From a virus, in IMG/VR virus record IMGVR_UViG_3300027561_000001, positions 1 through 49,184 of that record: DNA of 49,184 nt; one strand, written 5' to 3'. This document shows, one piece after another, positions 2,447 through 48,378 of the stretch. Position 1 is the stretch's first letter, and each line of letters starts with the position of its first letter. The notes beneath the pieces were generated by a model that was not told the DNA's origin, did no database searches, and saw only the letters and a program-made list of their open reading frames with translations. The translations under genes and the position numbers were made by a program.

Positions 2447-4306
2447 TTGAGCTGGACGATCCAGCAGATCAGCGAAGAGATGGCCAGGCGGCGGTCGGCT
2501 CAGGAGCCACTCATCCAGCGGATGCTCTCGGTGCGCGACCGCTACGACGCCGACGTGGTGGTCCCGGTCGCTGACACCGACGACGACGTGCCGATGGACG
2601 GGCTCCAGCCCCTACTCATCGCCGAGGCCGTCGATCACAGTGCTGTCTACGCCGCCCAGGCGCCACCCAACATCTTCGTGCCGGCCATCGACGCCACCAA
2701 GGAGTCCGGCGTGCGCTCCTCCGATTACGCCTCGCGCCGCCGCAAGGCCCTCTACTACTCATGGGATAAGTCCTGGTGGGAGATGGTCTTCGGCCGCTTC
2801 TACCGCCACTTGGCCGCCTATGCCGTCAGTGCCTTGGTAGTCGAGCTGGACGAGGCCAACAAGTGCCCCAAGTTCACGACCCGCGATCCCCTCACTGCGT
2901 ATCCCGAGCCGAAGGCCCCTGAAGACCTGACGATGCCGATCAACGTCGGCTTCATCAAAGGCAAGAGTCTCGACTGGCTGCACGCCCACTGGCCCGAGAC
3001 CCGAGACCGCTTCCCCCGGGGCTCCGGCTACGCCGCGCAGACCTCGGCTGAAGGCGAAATCTGGGATCTGGTCGAGTGGTGCGACGAGAACGAGACCGTG
3101 CTCGGGGTGCTTGGCCCCCGGGACGTGTACCACTCGTGGACCTCTGAGCCCATCAAGTGGGCCTGGGAACTGGGCCGCTACCCGAACATGCTCGGCCGCT
3201 GTCCCGCCGTATGCCCGAGACGGGTCACGCTCAGTCGTATCGCCAGCCAGATCGCCAACCTCACCGGCCATGTCGATCTCATGGCCAAGCTCATGTACCT
3301 CGACATCCGGGCCACCGAGCGCAGCATCTTCCCTGACCGCTACATCCTCGCCAAGACCGGTCAGAACCCGCGCTTGGCCGGCGGTCAGTGGCTCGACGGC
3401 GCCACCGGCGAAGTCAACTTGGTGACCGACGCCGACCTGATCGGGAACCTGCCAGCCACGCCTGACCCCAACAATAAGGTCACGATGGATCGCCTGGAGC
3501 GCAACTTCCGCGTATCCTCCGGGCTGATCCCCCAGGCTGGCGGGGAGACCTACGGCGCCCTTCGAACCGGTCGGGGGATCGACGCCCTCATGGGCGCGGC
3601 GCTCGACCCCAAGACCTCCGAGCTGCACCACATCGCCGAGCGCTATCTGGGCGAGGTCAACGAGCTGCTGCTGCTCGGCTATCGCAAGACGTGGGGCAGC
3701 CGCACGTTCTCGGTCTACAGCCCGCTCGACCCGGGTGCCATCAGCTTCACGCCCAACGAGCACATCGAGTTGAACCAGGACAACGAGCCGTTCCTCGACA
3801 ACGCCGTCTACTACCCGATCCCGGGCATGGACGACATCAACGCCACCCAGGTGATCGGCCAGATGATGGGCGCCGAGCTGACCTCAAAGCGCGGTGCCCG
3901 CCGGATGCACCCTCACGTCAAAGACCCCGAGGGCGAGGAACGTCAACTCCTCGTCGAAGCCATCCAGTCGATGGAACTGGCGGCGCTCGGCACCCGCGCC
4001 AGCACACCCCCAGGCATCCCGCCCGAGGACATGGCCCGCATGGAGGAGCTGGTCGCCGAAGGCAAGTCGCTCAGCCAGGCGATACTTCAGGCCAGCAAGG
4101 AAGCCCAGGAACGACAAGCCGCGATCCCAGAAGAGCAACCGGGCGCGCCGCCGGGTGCGGAGCAGATGCCAGGGCTCGCTAACCCCGGCGAAGGCATGGA
4201 AGCCGGAAGCATGGCGCAAGGCATGATCTCCCCCGGCGGCACCAACCTCGAACGAATGCGCGAACTCATCGGCGCGGTCCAAGCGCCACCACAAGGAGGA
4301 CCCTGA
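2447..4306 (+). CDS. Portal protein
   Basis: Dodecameric ring at the capsid vertex through which DNA enters and leaves. The 619-residue length, the position right after the terminase and the pattern (N-terminal RDRYDADVVVP, many aromatic residues in the first 150, then a long helical region with GLIPQAGGETYGALRTG) fit podovirus-type portals. The C-terminal 120 residues are Pro, Ala and Gln rich and probably disordered. The start is TTG at 2447, chosen because GGAGGT lies at 2432-2437. The stop overlaps the next ATG (TGATG). Confidence 0.8.
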   Translation: MSWTIQQISEEMARRRSAQEPLIQRMLSVRDRYDADVVVPVADTDDDVPMDGLQPLLIAEAVDHSAVYAAQAPPNIFVPAIDATKESGVRSSDYASRRRKALYYSWDKSWWEMVFGRFYRHLAAYAVSALVVELDEANKCPKFTTRDPLTAYPEPKAPEDLTMPINVGFIKGKSLDWLHAHWPETRDRFPRGSGYAAQTSAEGEIWDLVEWCDENETVLGVLGPRDVYHSWTSEPIKWAWELGRYPNMLGRCPAVCPRRVTLSRIASQIANLTGHVDLMAKLMYLDIRATERSIFPDRYILAKTGQNPRLAGGQWLDGATGEVNLVTDADLIGNLPATPDPNNKVTMDRLERNFRVSSGLIPQAGGETYGALRTGRGIDALMGAALDPKTSELHHIAERYLGEVNELLLLGYRKTWGSRTFSVYSPLDPGAISFTPNEHIELNQDNEPFLDNAVYYPIPGMDDINATQVIGQMMGAELTSKRGARRMHPHVKDPEGEERQLLVEAIQSMELAALGTRASTPPGIPPEDMARMEELVAEGKSLSQAILQASKEAQERQAAIPEEQPGAPPGAEQMPGLANPGEGMEAGSMAQGMISPGGTNLERMRELIGAVQAPPQGGP

Positions 4307-5507: not shown

Positions 5508-8500
5508 TCTTCGACGACGTGTTCGGTGAGCTGAGTGCCGTCTCGGCCTACGAGTCCCGCAAGCGACGCGCCCAAGAGGTCGCCAAAGCGATCCACCCGG
5601 CTCACGTCGTGGCGCTCAACAACGCCGCTGACCGGTGGCCGTACATGACCCCGGACGCCGCTATGGGCGCCACCCGTACCAACCGGACCTTGGCCAACGA
5701 GACGTTCGAGATGCTGGGTGAGCTGTCGACGAAACGGTGGATGCGCGACCACCCGGCCGGCATCGGCTACGGCCAGCCGTTGACGACCCCGCAGATGCGC
5801 CGAGCCCGCACCCGCTCAGCCAACCTGCGGGCGCAGGCCAACCAGGGGATCAACTACGCCACGATGCAGGCCCAGCGGGGCGCCGAGGCCAGCCAGACCA
5901 AGGAACTACGCGACCTGGATCTGCTCACCGACGAAGGCGAGCTGCGATCACCGGTGCCGTTGGAGGAGCTGGAGGCGTACAGCAAGCAGGGCGTCCGCCT
6001 CGATCCCCGCATCCAGAAGTTCCGCGAGATCACCGAGATGCTCGCGGGAGGCCAGAACGGCGAATGGCAGGAGGTACCGTTTGTGCTGCCGGAGGGTGGT
6101 GCCGGCAGATACCGGCCGCCCGTCGAAGGCGGTGAAGGTGGCTTCTTCCGCCCTGAGCCCGGCGTCGAAGGCGCCAACGTACTTCAAGCTCTGGGCCGGC
6201 TCGGGGGTCGAGTCGGCAACATCCGACTCCCCCAGCTCCAGCTCCCCGGTGCTGGTCCGTCACCCGGCGAACTCACTCGTCAGACCGCGGGGCCATCATC
6301 GGTGCAGGACGTGGTGCGCACCGGCTCGATGGCGATGGACTTCCCGGTCCAAGAGGCGGTCGGCCAGTTCCGCAACGCCTACGGCTGGGCGCACGGCAAG
6401 GATGTGTCCTGGGCCGAGCCCCAATCAGACTTCCTGATCCAGATGCAGACCGGCAAAGAGGCCGGCAACGGGTTCCTGGTCGACCTCGAATCCGAGGTGG
6501 CAAAGGAACGCCGTCGCCGTGAGGCCGAACGAGGTCAGATCCACGGCCACAACATCTCGGTGGGCCGCTGGGTGGCCGACGCGCTGCCATTCGCCCCCGA
6601 CACCAAGCCGTGGATGCTCATGTCGGGCATCGTCGACCTCGGCGTCCAGACCGCCGATCCGACCGCCGCCGCCCTCGGGGCGGCAGGCAAAGCCGGCCGG
6701 GCGCGTGATCTGTTCGCCAATCCCGAGCTGTACGAGAAAGCGGGCCTGTACGCCGGGCTACGGCGCACGTTTGCCGGCCCTGACGTGGCCAAGGCCCTCA
6801 ACTCGGACCGGGGCGCGCGTGCCGTCTCCTGGCTGACCGAACACACCGATCCCTACGAAATCTGGGCGGGCCTGAACCGCAAGGTCAACAACGACGTGGC
6901 AGTTCGGCTCGCCGACACCCGCAGTGCCGCCGACACCCGGCGCATCCTTGAGACCGAGCTGGGTAAGGGCGGGCTCCGGGCGCCCTCGACGTTCTACGGC
7001 GCTGGCATCGACCCCTTGACCGGCCAAGGTCTGTTGCACGGAACCCCAGTGAAGCGACCCAAGGTGATGCCGATACGGGGGCCGATCGAGGCCGACGACG
7101 GTGACTTGATCGGCCGTGAGATCGAAGCCTTCCTCCACAACGCCGGTGGCACTGACGAAGAGATCGCCAAGCATGTCGGCGGCGTCATGCGCGCGGGCAA
7201 GTCCCGCGAGCGCCTCAACGCCTCGATCCGCGACGCGTTGCGGGCTACTGACGGCATCCTCGCCCGAGGTGGGATCGACGATCCCGTGCTCCGCTCCGAG
7301 CTGACCCGTCTCCATGCCTCGGCCACCGAGGAGGGCTCGAAGACGTGGATCGACCTGACGACCGCCCAGCGTCAGACCGACGACATCATCAACGTGGGCG
7401 GCGATGCCGTCGAGGATCTGCCGGTGCGGCTCTACAACGAGTACGCCCCCAAGTATCTGAAGCTGCCCGACGCTCGCCGCATCCGCCGGCTCGTGTCCGA
7501 TCACGAGCGAACCATGATGCTCGTCGCCAAGCAGTCAGGCGAAGCTAAGGGCGAGCTGCGCTGGCCGATCGCTGCGCTCGAAGCCATCCAGAACGAGATC
7601 TGGAAGCCGGTCATGCTCGCCACTCGCATCGCCTGGCCGATCCGGGTGATCGGCGAAGAGCAAGTCCGCATGGCGGTGGCCGGCTACGACTCGATGTTCA
7701 ATCACCCGGTCTCGTTCCTGGCTGGGGCCATCGGCAAGAAGAAGGGCGAAGGCATCGCCGACAACTTCCTGCGCGAGGCCGCCTCGCAGACCGGGGCGAT
7801 CACCAGGGCTCATGGCCACTGGATCGAGCGGGCGGTGGCGAACGGCCGTCGCAAGACCTACACGAAGGGACCGCACGAGGCGCGCGCCTACCGACGGGCG
7901 TTGGCTTCGGAGACCGCCCGGCTCGCCAACGACCCGATCGCCTCCGAGGTCGCCAAGGCCGAGTCGCTCGACGACGTGAAGGAATGGTTCAAGCGCGGTG
8001 CCGGCCAGAAGTTCCACGGCGATCTGGTCAAGGAAGACCCCCGTAGGTTCGGCACCCCCGAACAGGCCGACGCCTACATCGAAGGGGTGGAGCGACGCAT
8101 CCGCCAGCAGACTGGCGGCCACGAAGACATGCTCGAAGCGGTGCGGACCGGCAAGTTCCGGGGCTCCAGCATCATCGACGAGCAAGGCAACCTCGACAAG
8201 GACGTGCTCAAGGGGATCGACGAGATCATCCCCGAGTACGGCCCCGCCAAGATCGTCGGCGACGAGTGGCACTCACTGCGCGACACCCAGGATCTCAAGG
8301 GGCTCGTCCAGTCGTGGGACCGGACCGTCGACAAGGCTTTCGGCTGGCTGATGACCTACGAGACCAACTGGCTGTCCCGGGTGCCCACCTTCTCCCAGTC
8401 CTACTGGCAGGAAGCCGAGCGGCTCCTCCCTCACGCCGACGAGGCGGCCAAGCAGCGGGCGATCGCCACCGCCGAACGGTGGATCGCCGGGCCGGACCGA

Positions 8501-16823: not shown

Positions 16824-17966
16824 ATGCCTACAGGTATGGCCAGCACCTATGACCTCACGGTCGGGGTGGTGGTCAACATGGACGAGGCCATCTACATGCT
16901 CTCGCCTGTCGACACTCCGCTGTTGACCGGCCTCGGGGCGGATGGCCTCACGATCATCGGATCTGATCCGGTCGACGAGCGCCAGTTCTCGTGGATGGAC
17001 GACACGATCCTCACGCCCCGTTCGGCGCTCGCCGCCATCTTGGTGACCGCCGGCACGACTGCCCAGGTGACGACAGGTCAAGGCACTCGATTCTCGACGG
17101 GCGACCTGCTCACCTTCGAGATCGACGGCAACACCACCGAAGTGGCCAGGGTCACCGGCTACACGACCGACGTGCTCACGATCACCCGAGCATGGGCGGG
17201 CACTGCCCAGCAGTACGCCACCGCCTCGCTCGTCGTCAGCGTCGGTTCGGCACTGCCCGAGGGCTCGAACCCCGAGGCGGCACGCACTGTCGACCGGGTG
17301 GAGAACACCAACGTCACGCAAATCTTCGGCCCCACCAAGGTCGATCTGTCCCGCACCGAACAGCAGGTGCGGAAGTACGGCGTCGGCAACGAGTTCTCGC
17401 ACCAGCTCGCCGGACGCATGAAGGAGAACGCCATCGCTCGTGAGCAGGCGTTCCTCTACGGCGCGCGCGTCGACTCGACCACGCTGGAAGCTCGGAGCAC
17501 GGGCGGCCTGCGGTTCTACATCACGACGAACCGCAACGCCACGGCTACCCAGCTCACGGCAGCCAACATCCAGACGGCCCAGCTCACCGGCTACAACCAG
17601 GGCGGCTTCGCTGATGTGGTGATGGCCAACCCGGTGGCGTTCGCCGACCTCAACGACCTGGCCAACACCACGGTCGTGCGCGAGACGGTCGACGACCCGA
17701 TGCGTGGTCGCACTCGGGTGTCCTGGGTCGACACCGAGTTCGGCTCGTCGCTCATGGCCCGTAACCGCTGGATGCTTCCCAACGACGCCTTCGGCTTCAG
17801 TCGGGAGCAGGTCATCCGTCGCGTGCTCCAGCCGCTCATCTACGAGCGTCTGGCCAAGACGGGCGACAGCGACCAGGGCCAGATCGTGTGCGAGGAGGGC
17901 CTGGAGGTCAAGGGCGAGGAACACGCCTACGCCTTCACCCTGCTCGGCTACACGGGCTCCAACTAG
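16824..17966 (+). CDS. Major capsid protein (DUF5309/SU10-like)
   Basis: Forms the icosahedral shell. The 380-residue sequence matches the pattern of DUF5309 (SU10-type) capsid proteins: an N-terminal arm with LSPVDTPLLTGLG, and a central helix with QIFGPTKVDLSRTEQQVRKY then EFSHQLAGRMKENAIAREQA. A beta-rich insert (residues about 75-140) and a P-domain-like part near FADVVMANPVAFADL follow. Codon use is the most biased of the neighbourhood, as expected for an abundant protein. The ribosome site CAGGAG lies in the end of the previous gene. A strong hairpin 9 bases after the stop probably ends most transcripts. Confidence 0.8.
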   Translation: MPTGMASTYDLTVGVVVNMDEAIYMLSPVDTPLLTGLGADGLTIIGSDPVDERQFSWMDDTILTPRSALAAILVTAGTTAQVTTGQGTRFSTGDLLTFEIDGNTTEVARVTGYTTDVLTITRAWAGTAQQYATASLVVSVGSALPEGSNPEAARTVDRVENTNVTQIFGPTKVDLSRTEQQVRKYGVGNEFSHQLAGRMKENAIAREQAFLYGARVDSTTLEARSTGGLRFYITTNRNATATQLTAANIQTAQLTGYNQGGFADVVMANPVAFADLNDLANTTVVRETVDDPMRGRTRVSWVDTEFGSSLMARNRWMLPNDAFGFSREQVIRRVLQPLIYERLAKTGDSDQGQIVCEEGLEVKGEEHAYAFTLLGYTGSN

Positions 17967-23195: not shown

Positions 23196-24374
23196 GTGGT
23201 AGTCGTCGATAGGGCCTACAAGGGCGCAGCCGCCGCCACCATCATCAACACGTCGATGACCTCCACGACGCCGGGCATCGGCGGCACGATCACTGTTGCC
23301 GATGACTCGGGCTACCCATCCTCGGGCAAGTTCGAGATCACCATCGACCGCGAGGTCCCCGGTGCCCAGGAACACGTCCTCATCAGCTCACGCTCGGGCA
23401 CCACGTTCACGATCGGCCAGCGTGGCTACGACGATTCAGTAGCCAAGGCCCACACGTCAGGCCAGGCCACCTGTGAGCTGTGGCTGTCGGCCCGCACGGT
23501 GCAGCTCCTCGGCGACCACGTGGACGACGTGGAGTCCGATCCTCACTCGGGCAAGCTGCTCAACAACGCGCGCCACGACCTCGAAGCTCGCCATACGTTC
23601 GGCGCTGCGCTCGGTACACCGGTAACACCGACCGACATCGCCACCGCAGGCGCGGCCGGCACCGGCAACAACCCGGCCAGGGAAGACCACACCCACAAGC
23701 TCGGCACCGGCGCGATCAACAGCGCCGGCATGTTCGCCTCGGGGGTGGTCGACGCTGCTGCCATCGCCACCGATGCGGTCGGCACACCCGAGATCGCCGC
23801 TAACGCCGTGGGCGCATCGGAGCTGGCCGACAACGCTGTCGACATCCTCGCCATCATCGCCGCAGCCCGAGACATCCTGTGCCCGCCCGGCATAATCGTC
23901 GCCTACGGCGATGACACTCCTGCCCCCACCGGCTGGCTGCTCTGCAACGGCACCGCCGTGTCCCGCACCACGTTCGCCACCCTGTTCGGCATCATCGGCA
24001 CCACCTATGGGGTCGGCGACGGATCGACGACGTTCAACGTTCCCGACCTGCGTGGACGTTTCCCGCTGGGCAAGGCCACCGCCGGCACCGGATCGACGAT
24101 GGGTGGCACAGGTGGTTCGCTCGACCACACCCACGCGCTGGATACGTCGTCGTCGGGTGCTCAGCTCACAGGGGTCGCCGGGTCGACCAACAACTGGTAC
24201 ATGATCCGCAAGACGGTCGCCGGCTGGAACTCGAACCAACGAGGCGACATGGGGGGCTTCGGCGGAAACGTGACGGCGCAGACGACCGGCGCCCAACTGG
24301 TCGGCGACAGCGACACCGCCAACCCGGCATTCCAAGTAGTCATGTACATCATCCGAACGGGGAACACCTCATGA
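23196..24374 (+). CDS. Tail fibre with phage tail-collar domain
   Basis: Starts at GTG 23196 after the ribosome site TAGGAGACC. Residues about 235-290 match the phage tail collar domain (GWLLCNGTAVSRTTFATLFG, then TTFNVPDLRGRFPLG). A Gly/Thr-rich tip follows with HTHALD. The middle carries repeated helical-trimer-like pieces (DAAAIATDAVGTPEIAANAV) typical of fibre shafts. It probably contacts the host surface. Confidence 0.8.
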   Translation: MVVVDRAYKGAAAATIINTSMTSTTPGIGGTITVADDSGYPSSGKFEITIDREVPGAQEHVLISSRSGTTFTIGQRGYDDSVAKAHTSGQATCELWLSARTVQLLGDHVDDVESDPHSGKLLNNARHDLEARHTFGAALGTPVTPTDIATAGAAGTGNNPAREDHTHKLGTGAINSAGMFASGVVDAAAIATDAVGTPEIAANAVGASELADNAVDILAIIAAARDILCPPGIIVAYGDDTPAPTGWLLCNGTAVSRTTFATLFGIIGTTYGVGDGSTTFNVPDLRGRFPLGKATAGTGSTMGGTGGSLDHTHALDTSSSGAQLTGVAGSTNNWYMIRKTVAGWNSNQRGDMGGFGGNVTAQTTGAQLVGDSDTANPAFQVVMYIIRTGNTS

Positions 24375-24604
24375 CCGATCTCGATCCCGATGACGATGGC
24401 CAGCTCGATGGCTGCGACGTTGACATGACGGTCGAGGATCAGCTCACCGAAGACGGCGAGCAGACCGACGCACTAGTCATGTTCGCCGACGTGTGGGATG
24501 ACCCCACTGCTGTCGAGTACCGGCGCCGCGAGTTGACCGCATGGGCGGCTGCCCTGCATAGCCCACCCGACGATCTGCCGACGACTGGGGCTCCCGATGC
24601 ATGA
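24371..24604 (+). CDS. Small acidic protein (77 residues)
   Basis: ATGA overlap with the fibre gene. Very acidic: the first 35 residues are about one third Asp/Glu (MTDLDPDDDGQLDGCDVDMT). The C-terminal half is more neutral and helical. No family recognised. It could be a fibre or lysis accessory protein judging by neighbours. Confidence 0.6.
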   Translation: MTDLDPDDDGQLDGCDVDMTVEDQLTEDGEQTDALVMFADVWDDPTAVEYRRRELTAWAAALHSPPDDLPTTGAPDA

Positions 24605-25397
24605 CACAGGACTAGCCGACCGTATCCGCGCCAAGGGCGTCAGGGTCGTGGAGATCGCTGGCTGGCAGACCCGCGGCAATGGTTCCGGCTTTCAGCCTCG
24701 GGGCGCCATCCATCACCACACGGCCGGCTCGTCACGCGGCGCCACCCCGTCTCTGAACACGAACATCTATGGCCGTCCCGACGTACCCGGCCCGCTCGCC
24801 CAGGTCATGCAGTCCCGTGAGCCAGGCGCGCTCGACAAGGCGTACGTGATTGCTGCCGGCAAGTGCAACCACGGCGGCGTCGGCCACTGGAACAACCCGG
24901 CGACCGGGGAACTCATCAACTCGAACTACGAGTCGGAGGGCCTGGAGGTCGAGCACACTGGCACCGGCGCGGTCGATCCGGCCCGTCACGAGATCTCGTG
25001 TCGCATCCTCGCGGCGATGCTCGAAGCCCCCGGCTCGTCCCGTGACTGGCGGATGTGCTGCGAGCACTACGAATACGCCGACCCGGACGGCCGTAAAGTC
25101 GACTTCCGGGAGCTGAATCCACCATTTGCTAACCGGGCCGCTGGGATACGTGCCCGAGTCGGCTACTGGATCGGCCGCACTATCACCACCCCACCGCCTG
25201 TTCCCATCATGGAGGAGCTACCAGAGATGTTCTTGTACAAGGGGCCTGGCCCCGCGTTCTTCTTCTGCCACGCCGGCAAGTCGGTCGGCATCAACGAAGC
25301 CTCCGACCTTGCCACGTTCACCGATGCTGACGTGCCTGTCCTCCGTCTCGACGACGACACGTTCGCCAAGTTCCGGGCCGCTTTCCCGGGCTCGTGA
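24597..25397 (+). CDS. Endolysin, N-acetylmuramoyl-L-alanine amidase
   Basis: Cuts between muramic acid and the stem peptide to release progeny. Residues about 30-175 form an amidase_2/PGRP-type domain: GAIHHHTAGS (His40/His41 region) gives the first zinc ligand, and CCEHYEYADPDGRKVDF gives His157 and the downstream Lys/Asp. Residues 195-266 look like a separate wall-binding domain (EMFLYKGPGPAFFFCHAGKS). No signal peptide. It is followed by a methyltransferase and then by membrane-protein genes that probably include the holin. Confidence 0.85.
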   Translation: MHDTGLADRIRAKGVRVVEIAGWQTRGNGSGFQPRGAIHHHTAGSSRGATPSLNTNIYGRPDVPGPLAQVMQSREPGALDKAYVIAAGKCNHGGVGHWNNPATGELINSNYESEGLEVEHTGTGAVDPARHEISCRILAAMLEAPGSSRDWRMCCEHYEYADPDGRKVDFRELNPPFANRAAGIRARVGYWIGRTITTPPPVPIMEELPEMFLYKGPGPAFFFCHAGKSVGINEASDLATFTDADVPVLRLDDDTFAKFRAAFPGS

Positions 25398-31422: not shown

Positions 31423-31670
31423 CCGCACGCGACGAAGCCATCCAAGCGATCTTGGATATGCCGAAACGGCACATGATCGCCAAACTCGACGGCGAGTTCT
31501 TCGGATCTGTTCTCGACGCCATCCCCGGCGACGTGTTGGTGCGGCTCGCTATCGAACGCGGCGCACTCATCGAGACAGCCCCCGAGTTCACCGCCGGCAT
31601 CTACTTCGATGTTGCCACTCGGCAGGACTTGGACGACTTCCCGCCGCTGTACCGGGTGGTGGAGTCGTGA
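31419..31670 (+). CDS. Small early protein (83 residues)
   Basis: ATGA overlap with the membrane peptide and GTGA overlap with the next gene. Helical first half (ARDEAIQAILDMPKRHMIAK), beta second half. No known family; coupled to the Gp3-like gene that follows. Confidence 0.55.
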   Translation: MTARDEAIQAILDMPKRHMIAKLDGEFFGSVLDAIPGDVLVRLAIERGALIETAPEFTAGIYFDVATRQDLDDFPPLYRVVES

Positions 31671-32719
31671 CCATCGTCAAGATCGGCGACAAGCCCAACC
31701 GTCCGCCCCGCGCCGGCCGCATCCGTACTGGCTACTCGGTCCCGGTGACCAAGGGGGGCAAGACGTACAAGCAGCCGAGGACGCTCAACACCTTCCGCTT
31801 CACGTCCTCGGACCCGACCCTGCTCGAACCACTGGCCGCCAAGTACCACGGGACCATCAAGCCCTGGAACGAGCCCCGCTCGCCGGACACCCACGAGGTG
31901 ACCACTGAGGCCAGCAAGATCGCCGTGGTGATCCCCCCTGATCCGATCAGCCAGTCCAACGAGCTGTGGGACCCGCACCTGAAGCGGGTGTGTAACGGCC
32001 CGGGCGGCACCTGCCGGCTGCTGGTCGAGACCCAAGACGATGCCGAGTTCCAAGAGGTGCCCTGCATCTGTGGGCGCAAGGGCATCGCCGAGTGCCGCTA
32101 CAAGCTGCGCCTCAACGTGGTTCTCCCCGAGACCGCATCCATCGGGTACTGGCGCTGGGACTCATCGTCTGAGATCGCCGGGGAAGAGATGCCCGGCGTC
32201 GCCGACCTGATCGAAGAACTCAGTGTCCGGCGTGGCTTCAACCGGGGTGTGCTCCGGCTAGAGCAGCGAGCGGGACGCAACAAGCGGTATCCGGTGGTCG
32301 TGCTCGACCTGGATGCCTCGATCGAAGAACTCATGGCCGGGACCACCCGGCTGGGTTCGCTGCCAGTGGCGCCTCCTGTATCGGCGGGCGAGCTGGTTAG
32401 CGGCGGTGGGACAGGGGGAGGATCGCATACCCCCGCGACTCCTCCTGTCCCGCCCTCCACCGACGACGAGATCGTGGACGCCGAGCTGGTCGACGATCCT
32501 GGCGACCCCGAGGACGAGCCCGAGCACGTAGAGCCGATGTTCGGTCGCGCCACCCTCGACGCGCTGCCCCAGAAGCAGAAGAACTGGGCGCTACGCCGAG
32601 GCCGTGAGCTGTCGGCCGAGTTCGCCGAGCCGGTGCCGACGAGCATCGCTGTGTTCTCGGAGCGGGTCGTCGATCACCTGGTCGAAGAGTTAGAGCTACA
32701 GAGAGCGGGCGAAACATGA
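31667..32719 (+). CDS. phiC31 Gp3-like (recombination directionality factor-like) protein
   Basis: 350 residues from GTG 31667. The first 190 residues follow the pattern I associate with the family of phiC31 gp3, the recombination directionality factor of serine integrases: LNTFRFTSSDPTLLEPLAAK, then IAVVIPPDPISQSNELWDPH, Cys-rich TCRLLVETQDD...CICG, and YKLRLNVVLPETASIGYWRW. A Gly/Pro/Asp linker and a helical tail (residues 270-350) follow. No integrase is present here, so it may act in DNA metabolism instead. Family match is from memory. Confidence 0.6.
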   Translation: MTIVKIGDKPNRPPRAGRIRTGYSVPVTKGGKTYKQPRTLNTFRFTSSDPTLLEPLAAKYHGTIKPWNEPRSPDTHEVTTEASKIAVVIPPDPISQSNELWDPHLKRVCNGPGGTCRLLVETQDDAEFQEVPCICGRKGIAECRYKLRLNVVLPETASIGYWRWDSSSEIAGEEMPGVADLIEELSVRRGFNRGVLRLEQRAGRNKRYPVVVLDLDASIEELMAGTTRLGSLPVAPPVSAGELVSGGGTGGGSHTPATPPVPPSTDDEIVDAELVDDPGDPEDEPEHVEPMFGRATLDALPQKQKNWALRRGRELSAEFAEPVPTSIAVFSERVVDHLVEELELQRAGET

Positions 32720-33156: not shown

Positions 33157-33545
33157 CCACCGACGATCGCGGGATGACTGACCTCGACCCGCTCTCGCAG
33201 GATCAGGTCGAGCGCGAGATCCTCCGTCTCTCGGGTGAACTCACCCGTCAGACGATCATGGTCCGCACGTCCGCCCAGCAGGCCGCCCAGGGGGACGTGG
33301 ACCACAAGCGGGCCACCGCTATGGCGTGGCTCGAACGGGTCGGCCGTGAAGGCACAGTGCCCGAAAAGGAAGCCGCGGTGACGGTGGCGTGTATCGCGGA
33401 GTACCGCGAGTGGAAGCTCGCCGACGCGGTGTTCAGGGCGGATCGCGAGAAGGGCCAGAACCTGCGCTCGCAGCTCGATGCCCTCCGCACGATCGCTGCC
33501 AACCAGCGCGCCGCCATCGACTACTCACGAGGGACAGGTGACTGA
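33153..33545 (+). CDS. Helical early protein (130 residues)
   Basis: Predominantly helical and charged: QVEREILRLSGELTRQTIMV, and the end LRSQLDALRTIAANQRAAID. This C-terminal pattern recurs in small phage proteins encoded near recombination genes; function not established. The segment EYREWKLADAVFRADREKGQ is echoed in the next gene (RQWKLADAAFKADCEERG), suggesting a local duplication. Confidence 0.6.
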   Translation: MTTDDRGMTDLDPLSQDQVEREILRLSGELTRQTIMVRTSAQQAAQGDVDHKRATAMAWLERVGREGTVPEKEAAVTVACIAEYREWKLADAVFRADREKGQNLRSQLDALRTIAANQRAAIDYSRGTGD

Positions 33546-34540: not shown

Positions 34541-35195
34541 CCAGCTTCCCCTCCAGGGGCCGCTCAAGATCATCTGTCCGTGTGGCTGCGGGGTGTTCGG
34601 CACCCCCAAGCGCAAGGCATGGGGCGACGGACTCCACCACGTGAAGGGCTGTGGCCCATGCAAGCGTTGCTCGGGATCGCGCGCCAAGAAGAACGCATAC
34701 GTGCGGGAACGCAAGATCGCCAAGGCCATCAGCGGGGAGCGCGACGCCATGTCCGGTGCCCTGTCAGGCCGAGATGTCCACATGGGCCTGTGGTCGATCG
34801 AAGAGACCGCGGAGGAGGCGCTGGTGCGTGGGTTGCGGCGCTGGTGGACCTCGAAGCAGATCCGCACCAAGGTCGCTCGGCTAATGGCTCGGCATGGCGA
34901 AGCACACGGGTTCGTGGCCTCGTGGGATGGACGCCCTCAGATCGTCGTGGTTCCCTACGACGACTGGGTGGGGCAGGTCCGCCAGGAACCCGCAAGCAAA
35001 GCCGGAGCAATTGAAGCAGCGGGCAATGGGAGGCTTGGCGTTGGCGGCTCGAACGACGAAACTACAGAAGATGGACGACTGCGAACGAGACCGCCAGGAC
35101 GCGGCTCGGGAGCAAGGGCTGCGAACGCCGATGCAGATGGCGTTGGGTCGCAAGCGCGACGACAACGTGGCCCGGGTGCGGGGGATGCTCCGTGA
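34533..35195 (+). CDS. Cys/His-rich zinc-binding protein, possible nuclease or DNA-binding factor
   Basis: 220 residues from ATG 34533. N-terminus ICPCGCGVFGTPKRKAWGDG followed by HHVKGCGPCKRCSGSRAKK forms one or two zinc-binding clusters with a basic tail, reminiscent of HNH or resolvase-like zinc folds, though no catalytic set is sure. After about residue 155 the sequence becomes Gly/Arg low-complexity and overlaps another well-formed reading frame (35026), so the true end or a frameshift is in doubt. Confidence 0.55.
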   Translation: MTDQLPLQGPLKIICPCGCGVFGTPKRKAWGDGLHHVKGCGPCKRCSGSRAKKNAYVRERKIAKAISGERDAMSGALSGRDVHMGLWSIEETAEEALVRGLRRWWTSKQIRTKVARLMARHGEAHGFVASWDGRPQIVVVPYDDWVGQVRQEPASKAGAIEAAGNGRLGVGGSNDETTEDGRLRTRPPGRGSGARAANADADGVGSQARRQRGPGAGDAP

Positions 35196-35307
35196 GCCGT
35201 TCGCCCCAGAGGTGCAAGAACGGGGGATCGCCGACGCGCGGGCGGCCATGCAGCGCGGCAACCTGCACGTACTGCGCGACGAAGATGGCCAAACATCCAC
35301 CCCGTGA
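35026..35307 (+). CDS. Charged helical protein overlapping the zinc-binding gene
   Basis: 93 residues from ATG 35026 (frame open from ATG 34894). Helical and charged: KMDDCERDRQDAAREQGLRT and DDNVARVRGMLREPFAPEVQ. It overlaps the previous gene by 170 bases in another frame, which is unusual here; either the upstream gene is artificially extended or the two frames are joined by a shift. Ends inside the start of the WhiB gene. Confidence 0.45.
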   Translation: MGGLALAARTTKLQKMDDCERDRQDAAREQGLRTPMQMALGRKRDDNVARVRGMLREPFAPEVQERGIADARAAMQRGNLHVLRDEDGQTSTP

Positions 35308-35596
35308 ACTGTGGATGGCGGAAGGCAACTGCTACGGGCACCCCGAGTGGACCAACCTGTTCTATCCCGAGCGGGGCGAGAATGAGAAGGCAGCAGCAGC
35401 TCGTGACATCTGCCTGTTCTGCCCGGTGAAGCAGGAGTGCCTCGACTACGCCAACCGTTGGGGCTTGAACCGAGAGGTGGACGGCATCATGGGCGGCTAC
35501 ACGGGCCGCCAGCGTCGTCGCCTACTAAAAGAGGAGCAGGAACGTGGCCTGGATCGTGTTCACGACCATTCACACCGTGACGATCTCGCAAGCTGA
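35285..35596 (+). CDS. WhiB-family iron-sulfur regulator
   Basis: 103 residues from ATG 35285. Four conserved Cys carry a [4Fe-4S] cluster: Cys16 (EGNCYG), Cys43-x2-Cys46 (DICLFCPVKQ) and Cys52. The GIMGGYTGRQRRRL block matches the G(V/I)WGG turn and basic tail that contact the sigma factor and DNA, with Met in place of the usual Trp. WhiB proteins occur only in Actinobacteria and their phages, so this fixes the host group. It may control host or late phage promoters. The 3' end overlaps the next gene by 53 bases. Confidence 0.9.
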   Translation: MAKHPPRELWMAEGNCYGHPEWTNLFYPERGENEKAAAARDICLFCPVKQECLDYANRWGLNREVDGIMGGYTGRQRRRLLKEEQERGLDRVHDHSHRDDLAS

Positions 35597-42045: not shown

Positions 42046-42087
42046 GAGTCTGCCCCCTTCTGTGCTCACGGTCAAGGGGGCAGACTC
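42046..42087. terminator. 14-bp perfect inverted repeat at the end of the AlpA-like gene
   Basis: GAGTCTGCCCCCTT (42046-42059) and AAGGGGGCAGACTC (42074-42087) with a 14-base loop. The right arm overlaps the stop and last codons of the leftward gene. It is a very strong stem usable in both directions, most simply a terminator. Confidence 0.7.
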
Positions 42088-42299
42088 GCGTCTGGGGGTC
42101 GTTTCCGGCGGTGCCTGCGAGCCCAGCGCGTCACGTCGGAGCGGTTCCACACCTTGAAGCCCGGCCACTCTTTGAGCGGCTCAGGAAAGTCGGGGTAGCG
42201 CCCGCGGTAGACGGTGATCGAGTTGCGGAGCCCCAGGCCGAGAACTTCTGCGACCTCTTGTGCACTCAGGATGTTCTCGATGTCAACTCGTTTGCCCAT
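42072..42299 (-). CDS. AlpA/excisionase-like helix-turn-helix protein
   Basis: 75 residues from ATG 42299. ILSAQEVAEVLGLGLRNSIT is a MerR/AlpA-type recognition helix pair, WPGFKVWNRSDVTRWARRHR the typical wing and final helix, and the end is very basic. Such proteins serve as excisionases or regulators in actinobacterial integrative elements. No integrase exists here, so regulation of the divergent FtsK-like gene is the better guess. A near-palindrome (ACACTGACATCAGGTGT) lies between the two genes at 42320-42336. Confidence 0.7.
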   Translation of the reverse strand: MGKRVDIENILSAQEVAEVLGLGLRNSITVYRGRYPDFPEPLKEWPGFKVWNRSDVTRWARRHRRKRPPDASLPP

Positions 42300-42335: not shown

Positions 42336-44627
42336 GTGATTACAGTAGTGATCGTGCTCCGGCAGATCACCTTCGTGCTCCCCGGCATCGCTGCGCTCAT
42401 CGCTATCCCCCTGTGGGGACGCTTCGCCGAGCAGCGCCACGAGCTGTGGCCCGACCGTGAAGTTGCCTGGGCACTGTGGCACTGGTTCAGCGGCGCTCGC
42501 GCCACCTGGCAGTGGCCACCCCTCGAAACGGGCAGAAGCGACCTGAAAGGAGAACTGCCACGCCGTGCCGTGACCGGCGCCGCCCGTACCGCCGGCACGG
42601 TAACCCTCGTCTACCTCTGGTCTGGCAAGACCGGCGATCCCCTCTTCTGGGGGGTGACACTCACCGCCGGCTGGGCCGGCATCGCCATCCTGGCGACCCA
42701 CGTTGCCATCCGCCGTGCCATGCGCGGCTGGTGGGTATTTCCCCTGGAGGAAGCCCTCTACGAGACCTCCGGCTGGAAATCGGTGTTCTCCGACGACGAA
42801 GCCTCCCGAGCCCAGGTGGTTCGAGGCCGGAGATGGGTCAAGGTTCGCCGCCTACGCCTCCGCTGGCGCAAGCGCAAGACCCAGCGTCTGCCCCGGCCCT
42901 GGCTGGACACCCGCCTGTTCTTCAAGGTCGAGCTGCCCTACCGCTTCGACAACTCCGACCTGAACCGCAAGAACTTCCTTAACCAGGCAACCCACAAGCT
43001 CGACCTCGGTGAGATCGTGCCAGGGTGGCACACCACCGGGCACTTCTCCCTGGTACGCCTCTATCCCGAGCTGCGGCTGCCACCCCCGCCCAAGTGGCAC
43101 GACAAGCATGTCCGCCAGATCATGCGGCCGGCATTGGGACCGATGATCTGGCCTCACGGACTTGGCAAGGGTGGCGTTGCCATCACGCGCAGCCGCAAGA
43201 CCGACAACCCGCATCTGATGATCTCGGCTGGCACCATCGGTGGCAAGTCGACGGCCCTGCGCTGGTATGCCGCCAACGTGCTCCACTTCGGCGGCCTGGT
43301 CGTCATCTGCGACATCAAGCGGCACTCGCACATCTGGGCGCGCGGGCTGCCCGGCACACTCTCGTTCCCCGACGTGACGTTGCCGGAAGACGCACCCGGG
43401 GCCGGCGCGCAGATCAACGAGGCCCTCCTCGGCGTCTGGGCCGAGATCGAGCGCCGCAACCGGGAGTGTGACCCGCTGCGGGTCGGTGACCCCTGGCCCG
43501 AGTTCCAGCCGGTCCTCCTCGTTTTCGACGAGCTGAACACCACCACGACCGCCATGAACCGCTGGTGGAAGACGGCTCGCCCCAACACCCGGGCCGGTGA
43601 TCTCGCCCCCGGCACCCACGCCCTACAGGACATCCTCCATCAAGGCCGAGCCGTCTGCGTCAGTGCCGCCTTCGGCGCCCAGGCCGCCCGCCGCCGCGCC
43701 GTCGGTGGCGGTGAAGGCTTCGAGGACATCGGCAACATCCTGATGGTCCCCCCTTACAGCAAGGCCACCTGGAACGTCTGCGCCCCTCACATCGAGTACA
43801 TTCCCGCCAAGTCCCACCACGACCACCCCGCTTGGGGCATCCTGCTCGACGGCCTTGACGCCATCGAGGTACAGCGCATCGAGATGACCGAGCGCGAAGC
43901 CGTGCGCTTCTCCCGTGCTGGGGACGCCAGACGGGCCGCCTGGCAGGAGACCCCTGCGATCGCTGGCCTCAGAGCCCTCGGAGCTGGGCAGCCCCGACCC
44001 CCGGAACCAACTATGCGCGTGGAGGTGGCGATCGGGGCCGCCCACGGCAACGGTAACAAGCCCGACCCTGGGACCTCCGGCCCACCCGATGACTTCGATG
44101 CCGCCACCCTGCGCCAGTTCTCCAGCGACGAAGGCGCCGGCACGGTCCCCATGCGCTACGACGCTCTCCGTAAGGCCGCCGACAAGCCCGGATTCCCCGG
44201 CCCCGCCCGGAAGGGACCGATCAAGGCCGACGGGACCGAGATGGTTTCCAAGCGCCTGTACCTGCGCCAGGAGATCGAAGTGTGGTTCGAGGAACGCTCC
44301 AACCTCGGCGACCCAGGCGTGTACGTCATCGAGCCACCGCACGACCTCAAGGTAAAGATCGGCGAGACCAAGCGGCTCGAAGATCGCATCGACGAGTTCT
44401 CGTGGAGTGGGGTCGGCGACCAGATTGTCAAGCAGTGGTTCCCGTGCACCGACAAGCAGCACGCCCAAGACCTGGAGACCTGGCTGCACGCCAAGTACGA
44501 CTCCCAGCGCATCCCCAGGACCGAGTGGTTCCGCAAGGAAGGCCAGCTCGACGAGGACTACCTGGACGCCGATCGGCTCCTGGCCGGCTGTCCCGATGAG
44601 CTGCGGCCAGTGAAGGAGGCGGCATGA
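42336..44627 (+). CDS. FtsK/TraB-like DNA translocase fused to a GIY-YIG nuclease domain
   Basis: 763 residues from GTG 42336. N-terminus: one membrane helix (residues about 8-24) and two more (about 85-130). Motor: Walker A SAGTIGGKST with Lys304, and Walker B VLLVFDELN with Asp398-Glu399, as in FtsK, TraSA and TraB, which pump double-stranded DNA. Residues about 595-655 resemble a DNA-binding helix-turn-helix with basic linker (MRYDALRKAADKPGFPGPAR). The C-terminus 660-750 is a GIY-YIG/T5orf172-type domain: GVYVI (661-665), KIG (674-676), Arg684, and Glu714 in DLETWLH, then EWF. A membrane pump carrying its own nuclease is an unusual build. It overlaps the next micro-frame by four bases. 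Confidence 0.85.
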   Translation: MITVVIVLRQITFVLPGIAALIAIPLWGRFAEQRHELWPDREVAWALWHWFSGARATWQWPPLETGRSDLKGELPRRAVTGAARTAGTVTLVYLWSGKTGDPLFWGVTLTAGWAGIAILATHVAIRRAMRGWWVFPLEEALYETSGWKSVFSDDEASRAQVVRGRRWVKVRRLRLRWRKRKTQRLPRPWLDTRLFFKVELPYRFDNSDLNRKNFLNQATHKLDLGEIVPGWHTTGHFSLVRLYPELRLPPPPKWHDKHVRQIMRPALGPMIWPHGLGKGGVAITRSRKTDNPHLMISAGTIGGKSTALRWYAANVLHFGGLVVICDIKRHSHIWARGLPGTLSFPDVTLPEDAPGAGAQINEALLGVWAEIERRNRECDPLRVGDPWPEFQPVLLVFDELNTTTTAMNRWWKTARPNTRAGDLAPGTHALQDILHQGRAVCVSAAFGAQAARRRAVGGGEGFEDIGNILMVPPYSKATWNVCAPHIEYIPAKSHHDHPAWGILLDGLDAIEVQRIEMTEREAVRFSRAGDARRAAWQETPAIAGLRALGAGQPRPPEPTMRVEVAIGAAHGNGNKPDPGTSGPPDDFDAATLRQFSSDEGAGTVPMRYDALRKAADKPGFPGPARKGPIKADGTEMVSKRLYLRQEIEVWFEERSNLGDPGVYVIEPPHDLKVKIGETKRLEDRIDEFSWSGVGDQIVKQWFPCTDKQHAQDLETWLHAKYDSQRIPRTEWFRKEGQLDEDYLDADRLLAGCPDELRPVKEAA

Positions 44628-44943: not shown

Positions 44944-45224
44944 CCATGTACGACGACGAACCCCAGAAGGCAGCGGCACCTATCCCGCTTCTGCTCGACA
45001 CCATCGACAAACAGACAGCGATCGTGACCGAAGCTGCTCGCACGTTGGCCGAGCACCTCGACAATGTGCTCCGTCCCGAGGAGGATGGTCCGTCGACCGG
45101 TGGCAGTGTGCCCCGAGAACGATTGGGGGGTTCCAACTTGGCGACCCGGCTCCAGTCGGTCTCGACCAATCTCGGAGACCTGGGCGTCTACCTGAATCAG
45201 CTCATGGCGAGGTTGGAGCTGTGA
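44940..45224 (+). CDS. Helical soluble protein (94 residues)
   Basis: ATGA overlap. Predicted helices PIPLLLDTIDKQTAIVTEAA and TRLQSVSTNLGDLGVYLNQL around a Pro/Gly linker. No family recognised. The stop lies in the GTGA of the next gene. Confidence 0.55.
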   Translation: MTMYDDEPQKAAAPIPLLLDTIDKQTAIVTEAARTLAEHLDNVLRPEEDGPSTGGSVPRERLGGSNLATRLQSVSTNLGDLGVYLNQLMARLEL

Positions 45225-45862
45225 CCGTGATCGAGGTGTCGACGAACGGTCGTGAGGCCGCGTATGCCCGCTATGTCGCCGATGGTGGCAACTGGACGAT
45301 CGCCCAGGTGGCGGCGGCCACAGGACTAGGCGAGCGCCGAGCGGGGGATATCAGTAGAGAGTGGAAGGTACGTCTTGCTGCTACAAATGGCAGTGAGCCG
45401 AGCGGGGTGTCGTTGCCGCCCGCCACGGCACCCCGCGTCAGATCGTCGACCGCCGGTGCGGCCGCCGCCCGCCCGCACCGGCGGTCGGCTCCACCCACCT
45501 GGGTTGTCGTTGCCACCAAGCTGGCAGTGGCCGTGGTCACGATCATCGCTGCCCTGCTGTCCTACTCAGGCATCCGGGCGCTGGCCATCGACGCCGGCCT
45601 CGGCTGGCACGGCGACATCTTGCCCCTCGGGGTCGACGGGCTCGTGGCCGCCTGCCTACTGGTGCGGGTCGTGCATCCCCGCAACCAGATAGCGCGCCTC
45701 GCCATGTGGGTGGCACTGATCGGCTCGGTGGCTGCCAATGTCATCACCTACGGACCCTGGCACCCGCCGCTCGGGATCGTCGCCGCGATCATGGCCGGGT
45801 TCATGCCGATCGCCGCCGCCACCGGCTACCACCTGCTGGGCCGGATGCAGGTCGAGCAGTGA
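45221..45862 (+). CDS. DUF2637-like membrane protein with N-terminal helix-turn-helix
   Basis: 213 residues from GTG 45221 (GTG 45227 possible). Residues about 20-55 (WTIAQVAAATGLGERRAGDI) look like a helix-turn-helix. After a Pro/Arg linker come about four membrane helices, with the signature ALLSYSGIRALAIDAGLGWH followed by LPLGVDGLVAACLLV, characteristic of DUF2637 proteins of actinobacterial plasmids and integrative elements, where they accompany TraB/FtsK pumps. This links the block to plasmid transfer functions. Confidence 0.65.
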   Translation: MTVIEVSTNGREAAYARYVADGGNWTIAQVAAATGLGERRAGDISREWKVRLAATNGSEPSGVSLPPATAPRVRSSTAGAAAARPHRRSAPPTWVVVATKLAVAVVTIIAALLSYSGIRALAIDAGLGWHGDILPLGVDGLVAACLLVRVVHPRNQIARLAMWVALIGSVAANVITYGPWHPPLGIVAAIMAGFMPIAAATGYHLLGRMQVEQ

Positions 45863-47969: not shown

Positions 47970-48357
47970 TGATCTTTCGATATATCTCATGATCTACACC
48001 TGCGATCATTGCGGCACGGACTTTGAGGGCCAACGGAAGCGCAGGGGATCGAGAGCCTTTTGTTCTCGTAGATGTAAGGACAAGGCTCGCATCGGCTCAC
48101 CTGAGCAGAGGGCCGCGCTTCTACGCTGCTACTACAAGCGTCAATACGGACTCACGATCGAGGAAGTCGCTGAGCTGCGAGCCGAGGGCTGCCAGATCTG
48201 CGGACGCCTCGATGGCACTGGCAGATTCGGCCAGCTCCACATCGACCACGATCATCAGTCAGGCAAGGTCCGGGGTGTGCTCTGCCACGGCTGCAATGTA
48301 TCCATCGGGCACTTCCGTGATGATCCGAAGCTGTTGTTGGCAGCCATTAACTACCTG
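47949..48357 (+). mobile_element. Putative HNH homing-endonuclease insertion carrying a recoded 3' end
   Basis: 409 bases between the two T-L-D-Y-T-P codings. The first part is locally A/T-rich (tgatctttcgatatatctca), unlike the rest of the region. The simplest reading is that an endonuclease gene landed at the end of the upstream gene and replaced its last codons with synonymous ones, leaving the original codons as its own 3' end. Confidence 0.55.
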
Positions 48358-48378
48358 ACCCTCGACTACACGCCATAG
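47989..48378 (+). CDS. HNH (endonuclease VII-like) homing endonuclease
   Basis: 129 residues from ATG 47989. N-terminal zinc ribbon (YTCDHCGTDFEGQRKRRGSR, then FCSRRC) for DNA binding. Nuclease: GCQICGRLDG, QLHIDHDHQSG with the HNH His and Asp, VRGVLCHGCNVSIG, as in recombination endonuclease VII. Codon use is less GC-biased than neighbours, which suggests recent arrival. Ends INYLTLDYTP, repeating the preceding protein's C-terminus. No good ribosome site. Confidence 0.85.
   Translation: MIYTCDHCGTDFEGQRKRRGSRAFCSRRCKDKARIGSPEQRAALLRCYYKRQYGLTIEEVAELRAEGCQICGRLDGTGRFGQLHIDHDHQSGKVRGVLCHGCNVSIGHFRDDPKLLLAAINYLTLDYTP

Follow-up and report, generated by a model that had tools for sequence, protein, structure and literature searches.

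To our knowledge, how a circular molecule is handled in Streptomyces-type conjugation is unsettled: double-stranded DNA is moved by a single pump, and no cutter is known. The Streptomyces pump TraB moves double-stranded DNA alone; its C-terminus recognises repeats, and SpdB2, a membrane protein, is one of its interaction partners (PMC4170104, PMC5365140). In Thermus transjugation, efficient DNA donation by the HerA-like pump TdtA requires a NurA-like nuclease and a restriction enzyme (PMC5365140). We analysed a virus record of 49,184 bases, hereafter the window, in which an initial annotation had proposed an FtsK/TraB-like DNA pump fused to a GIY-YIG nuclease in a phage. Profile searches, structure prediction, homologues and a second fusion in another contig (L019) all upheld this proposal.

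The window protein shares with Streptomyces TraB the predicted design of a membrane-anchored FtsK-type pump with a C-terminal DNA-recognition domain and, putatively, an Spd-like membrane partner (PMC4170104, PMC5365140); TraB, in contrast, has no nuclease domain. The pRL2-11/DUF87 plasmid ATPases, such as those of pRL2 and pPR2, have the same motor family (26-33% identity), membrane N-terminus and C-terminal helix-turn-helix (HTH), and several also have a DUF2637 neighbour; however, they stop after the HTH without a nuclease, whereas the window protein has one and is very divergent. The Thermus system is similar in that an FtsK-HerA pump depends on a partner nuclease for donation (PMC5365140), but its components are encoded by separate genes, the nuclease is NurA-like instead of GIY-YIG and the host belongs to another phylum. 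HerA-NurA and the defence HerA-nuclease complexes follow the same pump-plus-nuclease logic with weak structural similarity, and differ in being cytoplasmic, made of two proteins and built with other nuclease folds. Lastly, the motor-only FtsK-like protein of Streptomyces phage Dagobah shares its motor core with the window protein (34% identity over residues 288-522) but, at 309 residues, lacks the N-terminal membrane region, the HTH and the nuclease, and its phage has no DUF2637 gene.

Genome context

The phage structural genes were confirmed in the window, namely the terminase large subunit (386-2440), portal (2447-4306), SU10-type major capsid protein (16824-17966), tail collar protein (23196-24374) and endolysin (24597-25397). 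A single gene with repeated VIARAF/VSVG motifs spans both contig ends (48382-49184 and 1-346). Because the ends run into one repeat-rich gene, the genome is probably circularly permuted, and the window is apparently a near-complete tailed-phage genome. Filamentous actinobacteria are the putative host, as judged from relatives of the motor in Streptomyces and other actinobacteria. Neither a tyrosine integrase nor an unassigned open reading frame (ORF) of sufficient size for a serine integrase was found in the window; an episomal state of the phage would fit this absence. Replication initiator and partition genes were not recognised in the window. Other genes included a recombination endonuclease VII, a second phage nuclease located just downstream of the pump region (47989-48378, plus strand; Pfam 6.1e-19), a WhiB-type transcription factor (35192-35596, plus strand; Pfam 2.6e-12) and a protein like the Gp3-like recombination directionality factors (31667-32719, plus strand), although no integrase was found. 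ARAGORN called a tRNA-Ala(ggc) of 92 bases (33440-33531, minus strand), which overlaps an ORF and may be spurious.

Overall architecture of the fusion protein

The fusion protein of 763 residues is encoded on the plus strand at 42336-44627, in a single frame with a GTG start and no internal stop. It was composed of four parts: an N-terminal membrane/helical region (residues 1-144; 42336-42767), an FtsK-HerA type motor domain (residues about 194-545; 42915-43970) with Walker A K304 and Walker B D398-E399, a C-terminal HTH common to the plasmid homologues (residues about 587-656; 44094-44303) and a GIY-YIG nuclease domain of the MUG113/T5orf172 type (residues about 661-745; 44316-44570). The nuclease is appended directly after the HTH, and homology to the plasmid proteins reaches residue 654. 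GC at third codon positions was 0.78-0.92 all along the ORF and 0.87 within the GIY-YIG part; this uniform codon-position GC shows that pump and nuclease domain share one coding frame. Neither a chimeric assembly nor a misreading of two separate genes explains the ORF: it is a single frame of uniform composition, its homology to the plasmid proteins extends up to residue 654, and the second contig has the same domain order.

The predicted membrane helices were borne out by hydropathy, which placed hydrophobic stretches at residues 1-31 and 102-125, and by the model, in which N-terminal helices covered residues 2-33, 70-96 and 102-144, with low confidence before residue 100. The segment first described as an HTH-like linker proved to be the conserved C-terminal HTH of the plasmid homologues, whose alignment with the window protein extends to residue 654. 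Hydropathy, alignment and the model together indicated a membrane-associated N-terminus and an HTH on the C-terminal side of the motor, as expected of a TraB-type protein.

Structure of the motor and the HTH

A full-length AlphaFold2 model was built with 39 alignment rows. The pLDDT was mostly above 90 in the motor and around 77-92 in the HTH. A Foldseek search against the PDB gave an FtsK motor (6t8o) as the top match with an E-value of 8.4e-13, followed by TcpA of plasmid pCW3, a conjugation coupling protein, EccC and HerA. With its modelled RecA-like fold and its Walker A and B motifs, the window motor is assigned to the FtsK-HerA superfamily. Of the Walker residues named in the initial annotation, K304 and E399 were invariant in the alignment of 39 sequences, as were S305, G437 and R438; the strict GxxxxGK[ST] pattern, however, was not matched, as A298 replaces its glycine. 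Family relatives also carry alanine or serine at this position. By sequence, no close homologue of solved structure was found, and the Pfam motor profiles gave barely a hint (T4SS-DNA_transf, 0.077; AAA_10, 0.15), which reflects a very divergent motor. The window protein gave no match to FtsK_SpoIIIE (PF01580), whose cut-off was just passed by its relatives L019 and L026.

Structure of the GIY-YIG domain

The nuclease domain matched Pfam MUG113 at residues 673-733 (3.5e-8; 34.3 bits against a curated cut-off of 22.3) and T5orf172 at residues 662-733 (3.1e-7; 31.3 bits against a curated cut-off of 20). The GIY-YIG landmarks were located at G661-V-Y663, K674-I-G676, R684 and E714, and no other match to this landmark pattern was present in the six frames of the window. 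Upon alignment with five stand-alone GIY-YIG proteins, residues K674, I675, G676, R684, E714, H718, E730, W731 and F732 were invariant, which confirmed the full set of landmarks reported at the outset, including Arg684 and Glu714. A chance occurrence of the motif was excluded by the conserved residues and by the matches above curated cut-offs.

The nuclease part was ill-defined in the full-length model, and adding stand-alone homologues solved this. Residues 634-763 were modelled with the five stand-alone GIY-YIG homologues as rows (L126 and L127 being identical), which yielded a beta-beta-alpha-beta-alpha fold in which the core pLDDT was about 80-93. When this model was compared with the PDB, the three matches of highest probability (0.41-0.51) were all to the GIY-YIG enzyme Slx1, with E-values that were not significant. 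The modelled fold of the C-terminal residues was GIY-YIG-like, in agreement with the Pfam families above their cut-offs. The catalytic arginine and glutamate are retained, and the domain is predicted to cut DNA.

Homologues and rarity of the fusion

The tblastn search matched 46 plasmids, 43 of them from Streptomyces, in proteins named pRL2-11 or DUF87, and all matches ended at residue 654 or earlier. As evident from the alignment, the plasmid proteins have the N-terminal region, motor and C-terminal HTH of the window protein and then stop. The description as an FtsK/TraB-like pump was supported, the motor being of a plasmid type; by sequence it falls within the pRL2-11/DUF87 family found on actinobacterial plasmids, and not among the characterised TraB proteins themselves. 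On Streptomyces plasmids, pRL2-11 is often followed directly by another, shorter motor paralogue (L039-L051 region; for example L014, 4481-5374); in L014 and L012, the lysine is missing from the P-loop of this paralogue, which reads GGGST.

Among 50,697 phage records, only Dagobah, a cultured phage predicted to be temperate (PMC7650747), matched the window protein, through its motor-only protein annotated as hypothetical (L002, 2547-3476). When viral contigs were scanned with a single protein sequence, either full-length or restricted to the nuclease, nothing was matched, and alignment-based scans were needed to recover relatives. These revealed motor-only short forms of about 304-390 residues, similar to the Dagobah protein and recurring in about a dozen viral contigs, and long forms with the HTH.

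The fusion was rare. Among the chromosomal and plasmid homologues, the C-termini of about 45 were read and all terminated after the HTH, so a fusion common in plasmids or chromosomes was not found; about 20 other viral long forms terminated likewise, which makes about 65 other homologues with the C-terminus read that lack the nuclease. A homologue was present in 34 of 394 Streptomyces genomes, with no alignment extending into the nuclease. A search for the same fusion elsewhere returned one further, unrelated phage contig (L019; IMGVR_UViG_3300026078_000074), whose protein of 824 residues was the only other long form to run past the HTH into a nuclease-like domain. It is surrounded by phage tail genes, with a DUF2637 gene 124 bp downstream. 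Its C-terminus contained GIVY, GYVGQT and the arginine and glutamate landmarks; it matched PF01541 at 6.3e-5 in a single-record search and at only 0.089 against the whole of Pfam, and matched phage endonuclease families at about 0.01. By hhalign, no similarity was detected between the window GIY-YIG domain and this C-terminus. As judged from these profiles, L019 carries a different and more weakly supported GIY-YIG subtype. The two fused proteins did not group in the motor tree; both lie on long branches (2.23 for the very divergent window protein), and given such branches the two fusions may have a single origin.

No description of a GIY-YIG/FtsK fusion was found in the literature searched, the coverage of which was incomplete, so the novelty of the fusion is provisional. 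What appears to be new here, with that proviso, is a plasmid-type FtsK/TraB-like pump in phages with an added nuclease.

GIY-YIG and DUF2637 genes near the pumps

Stand-alone GIY-YIG genes were sought by T5orf172 searches of whole records. In the phage L016, where ORF 6466-8025 was recognised on reading as encoding a terminase, a stand-alone GIY-YIG gene lay 259 bp from the pump gene on the same strand, in the order pump, small membrane ORF, GIY-YIG. In L126, which L124 and L127 match, the GIY-YIG gene likewise came after the pump, at a distance of 261 bp and again on the same strand. In L018 and in plasmid L014, the gene was located about 1 kb from the pump on the opposite strand. Over the full records, the combined p for this closeness was only about 0.001 under uniform placement, a rough value that ignores gene clustering. 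The recurrent pairing of pump and GIY-YIG, fused or adjacent, suggests a joint function, and pumping and cutting probably work together. The proposal that the protein cuts and pumps in one unit is plausible on these genomic grounds. The same pump and GIY-YIG region was observed at matching positions in IMG/VR contig 2862561106_000004 and Streptomyces solincola (L018, L072, L125), so a known isolate probably carries this contig as a prophage.

The window also encodes, at 45224-45862 on the plus strand, a protein of 212 residues with an N-terminal HTH-like region and a DUF2637 membrane domain (Pfam 2.6e-11). Of the 22 long-form phage records, 14 had a DUF2637 gene no more than 2 kb from the pump; one weak match was found in the 13 short-form records. 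In pRL2, pPR2 and the NBC_00691 plasmid (L015), the ATPase gene is preceded, immediately or one gene away, by a DUF2637 gene. In the papers searched there was essentially no literature on DUF2637 and no experimental test of its function; we infer a likeness to the Spd spread proteins. Directly upstream of the pump, a divergent gene (42072-42299, minus strand) encodes a putative HTH protein of 75 residues, a possible regulator; this assignment is tentative, as HTH_17 was matched only at an E-value of 0.15.

Proposed mechanism and alternatives

Our main reading, to which we assign a probability of about 0.42, is that the protein is a conjugation-like pump for double-stranded DNA which spreads the phage genome through the mycelium, with its own nuclease cutting or nicking at a site chosen by the HTH. 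The N-terminal helices would anchor a hexameric FtsK/TraB-like motor in the membrane, where the DUF2637 protein would probably be its partner. The HTH would select a site on the phage DNA, and the GIY-YIG domain would nick or cut there, which may provide a free end for the pump or relieve topological strain. The motor would then push naked, double-stranded phage DNA into adjacent compartments or cells. By analogy with TraB and TdtA, this sequence of anchoring, HTH binding, nicking or cutting, and pumping is probable. The absence of a detected tyrosine integrase would fit an episomal phage that has to spread in the mycelium. Several observations weigh against this reading: no clear clt-like array of 8-bp repeats was found near the gene, replication and partition genes were not recognised, and most pumps of the family lack a nuclease, which means that the family can do its work without cutting. 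A bolder version, which we regard as rather doubtful, is that some actinobacterial phages possess a self-contained cut-and-pump machine with pump, site reader and nuclease in one chain; such a "conjugating phage" would pass naked double-stranded DNA between cells without a virion or a relaxase.

The initial annotation had offered phage-plasmid transfer, DNA segregation or attack on competing DNA. Given the plasmid-type motor and the DUF2637 partner, transfer or spread is the most favoured of the three. For attack or superinfection exclusion, in which a membrane-anchored pump would grip incoming or rival DNA through the HTH for the GIY-YIG domain to cut, there are precedents in the HerA pump and nuclease pairs of defence systems; HerA-DUF4297 and similar complexes were among the Foldseek matches, and the GIY-YIG gene beside the L016 pump matches the candidate defence family PDC-S57. 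However, the window protein matched no PADLOC model, and a motor of the plasmid-transfer type with DUF2637 nearby is unlike the HerA-defence arrangement, so we consider this role unlikely.

Slightly less probable still is a role in the segregation or stability of an episomal prophage, whereby the pump would move phage DNA across septa or into daughter compartments and the nuclease would resolve multimers or tangles. An FtsK-type motor and the lack of a detected integrase in the window are compatible with it, and in Streptomyces plasmids stability is tied to spread (PMC4170104). Resolution genes, like partition genes, were not recognised, and this role overlaps so strongly with transfer that sequence hardly separates the two.

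It is improbable that the GIY-YIG domain is a homing-type nuclease or passenger that settled beside and then onto the pump gene with no functional link to pumping. Homing nucleases do exist among GIY-YIG proteins, and the stand-alone genes near pumps vary in position and orientation; nevertheless, two fusions of different subtypes are placed identically after the HTH, the active-site residues are retained and the pump genes are uninterrupted. A lytic-cycle role, namely degrading or shifting the host chromosome or processing phage genomes for packaging, is very improbable: the gene does lie within a phage with full head and tail genes, and packaging ATPases resemble FtsK-like motors, but this phage has its own terminase and endonuclease VII, and its pump carries membrane helices and lies near a DUF2637 gene.

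Returning to conjugation-like spread, a natural pump with a nuclease behind its DNA-reading domain, or adjacent to it in relatives, makes the question of how the circular molecule is handled directly testable. The finding also suggests that conjugation-like transfer may be, alongside virions, a second route by which phages of mycelial bacteria spread their DNA.
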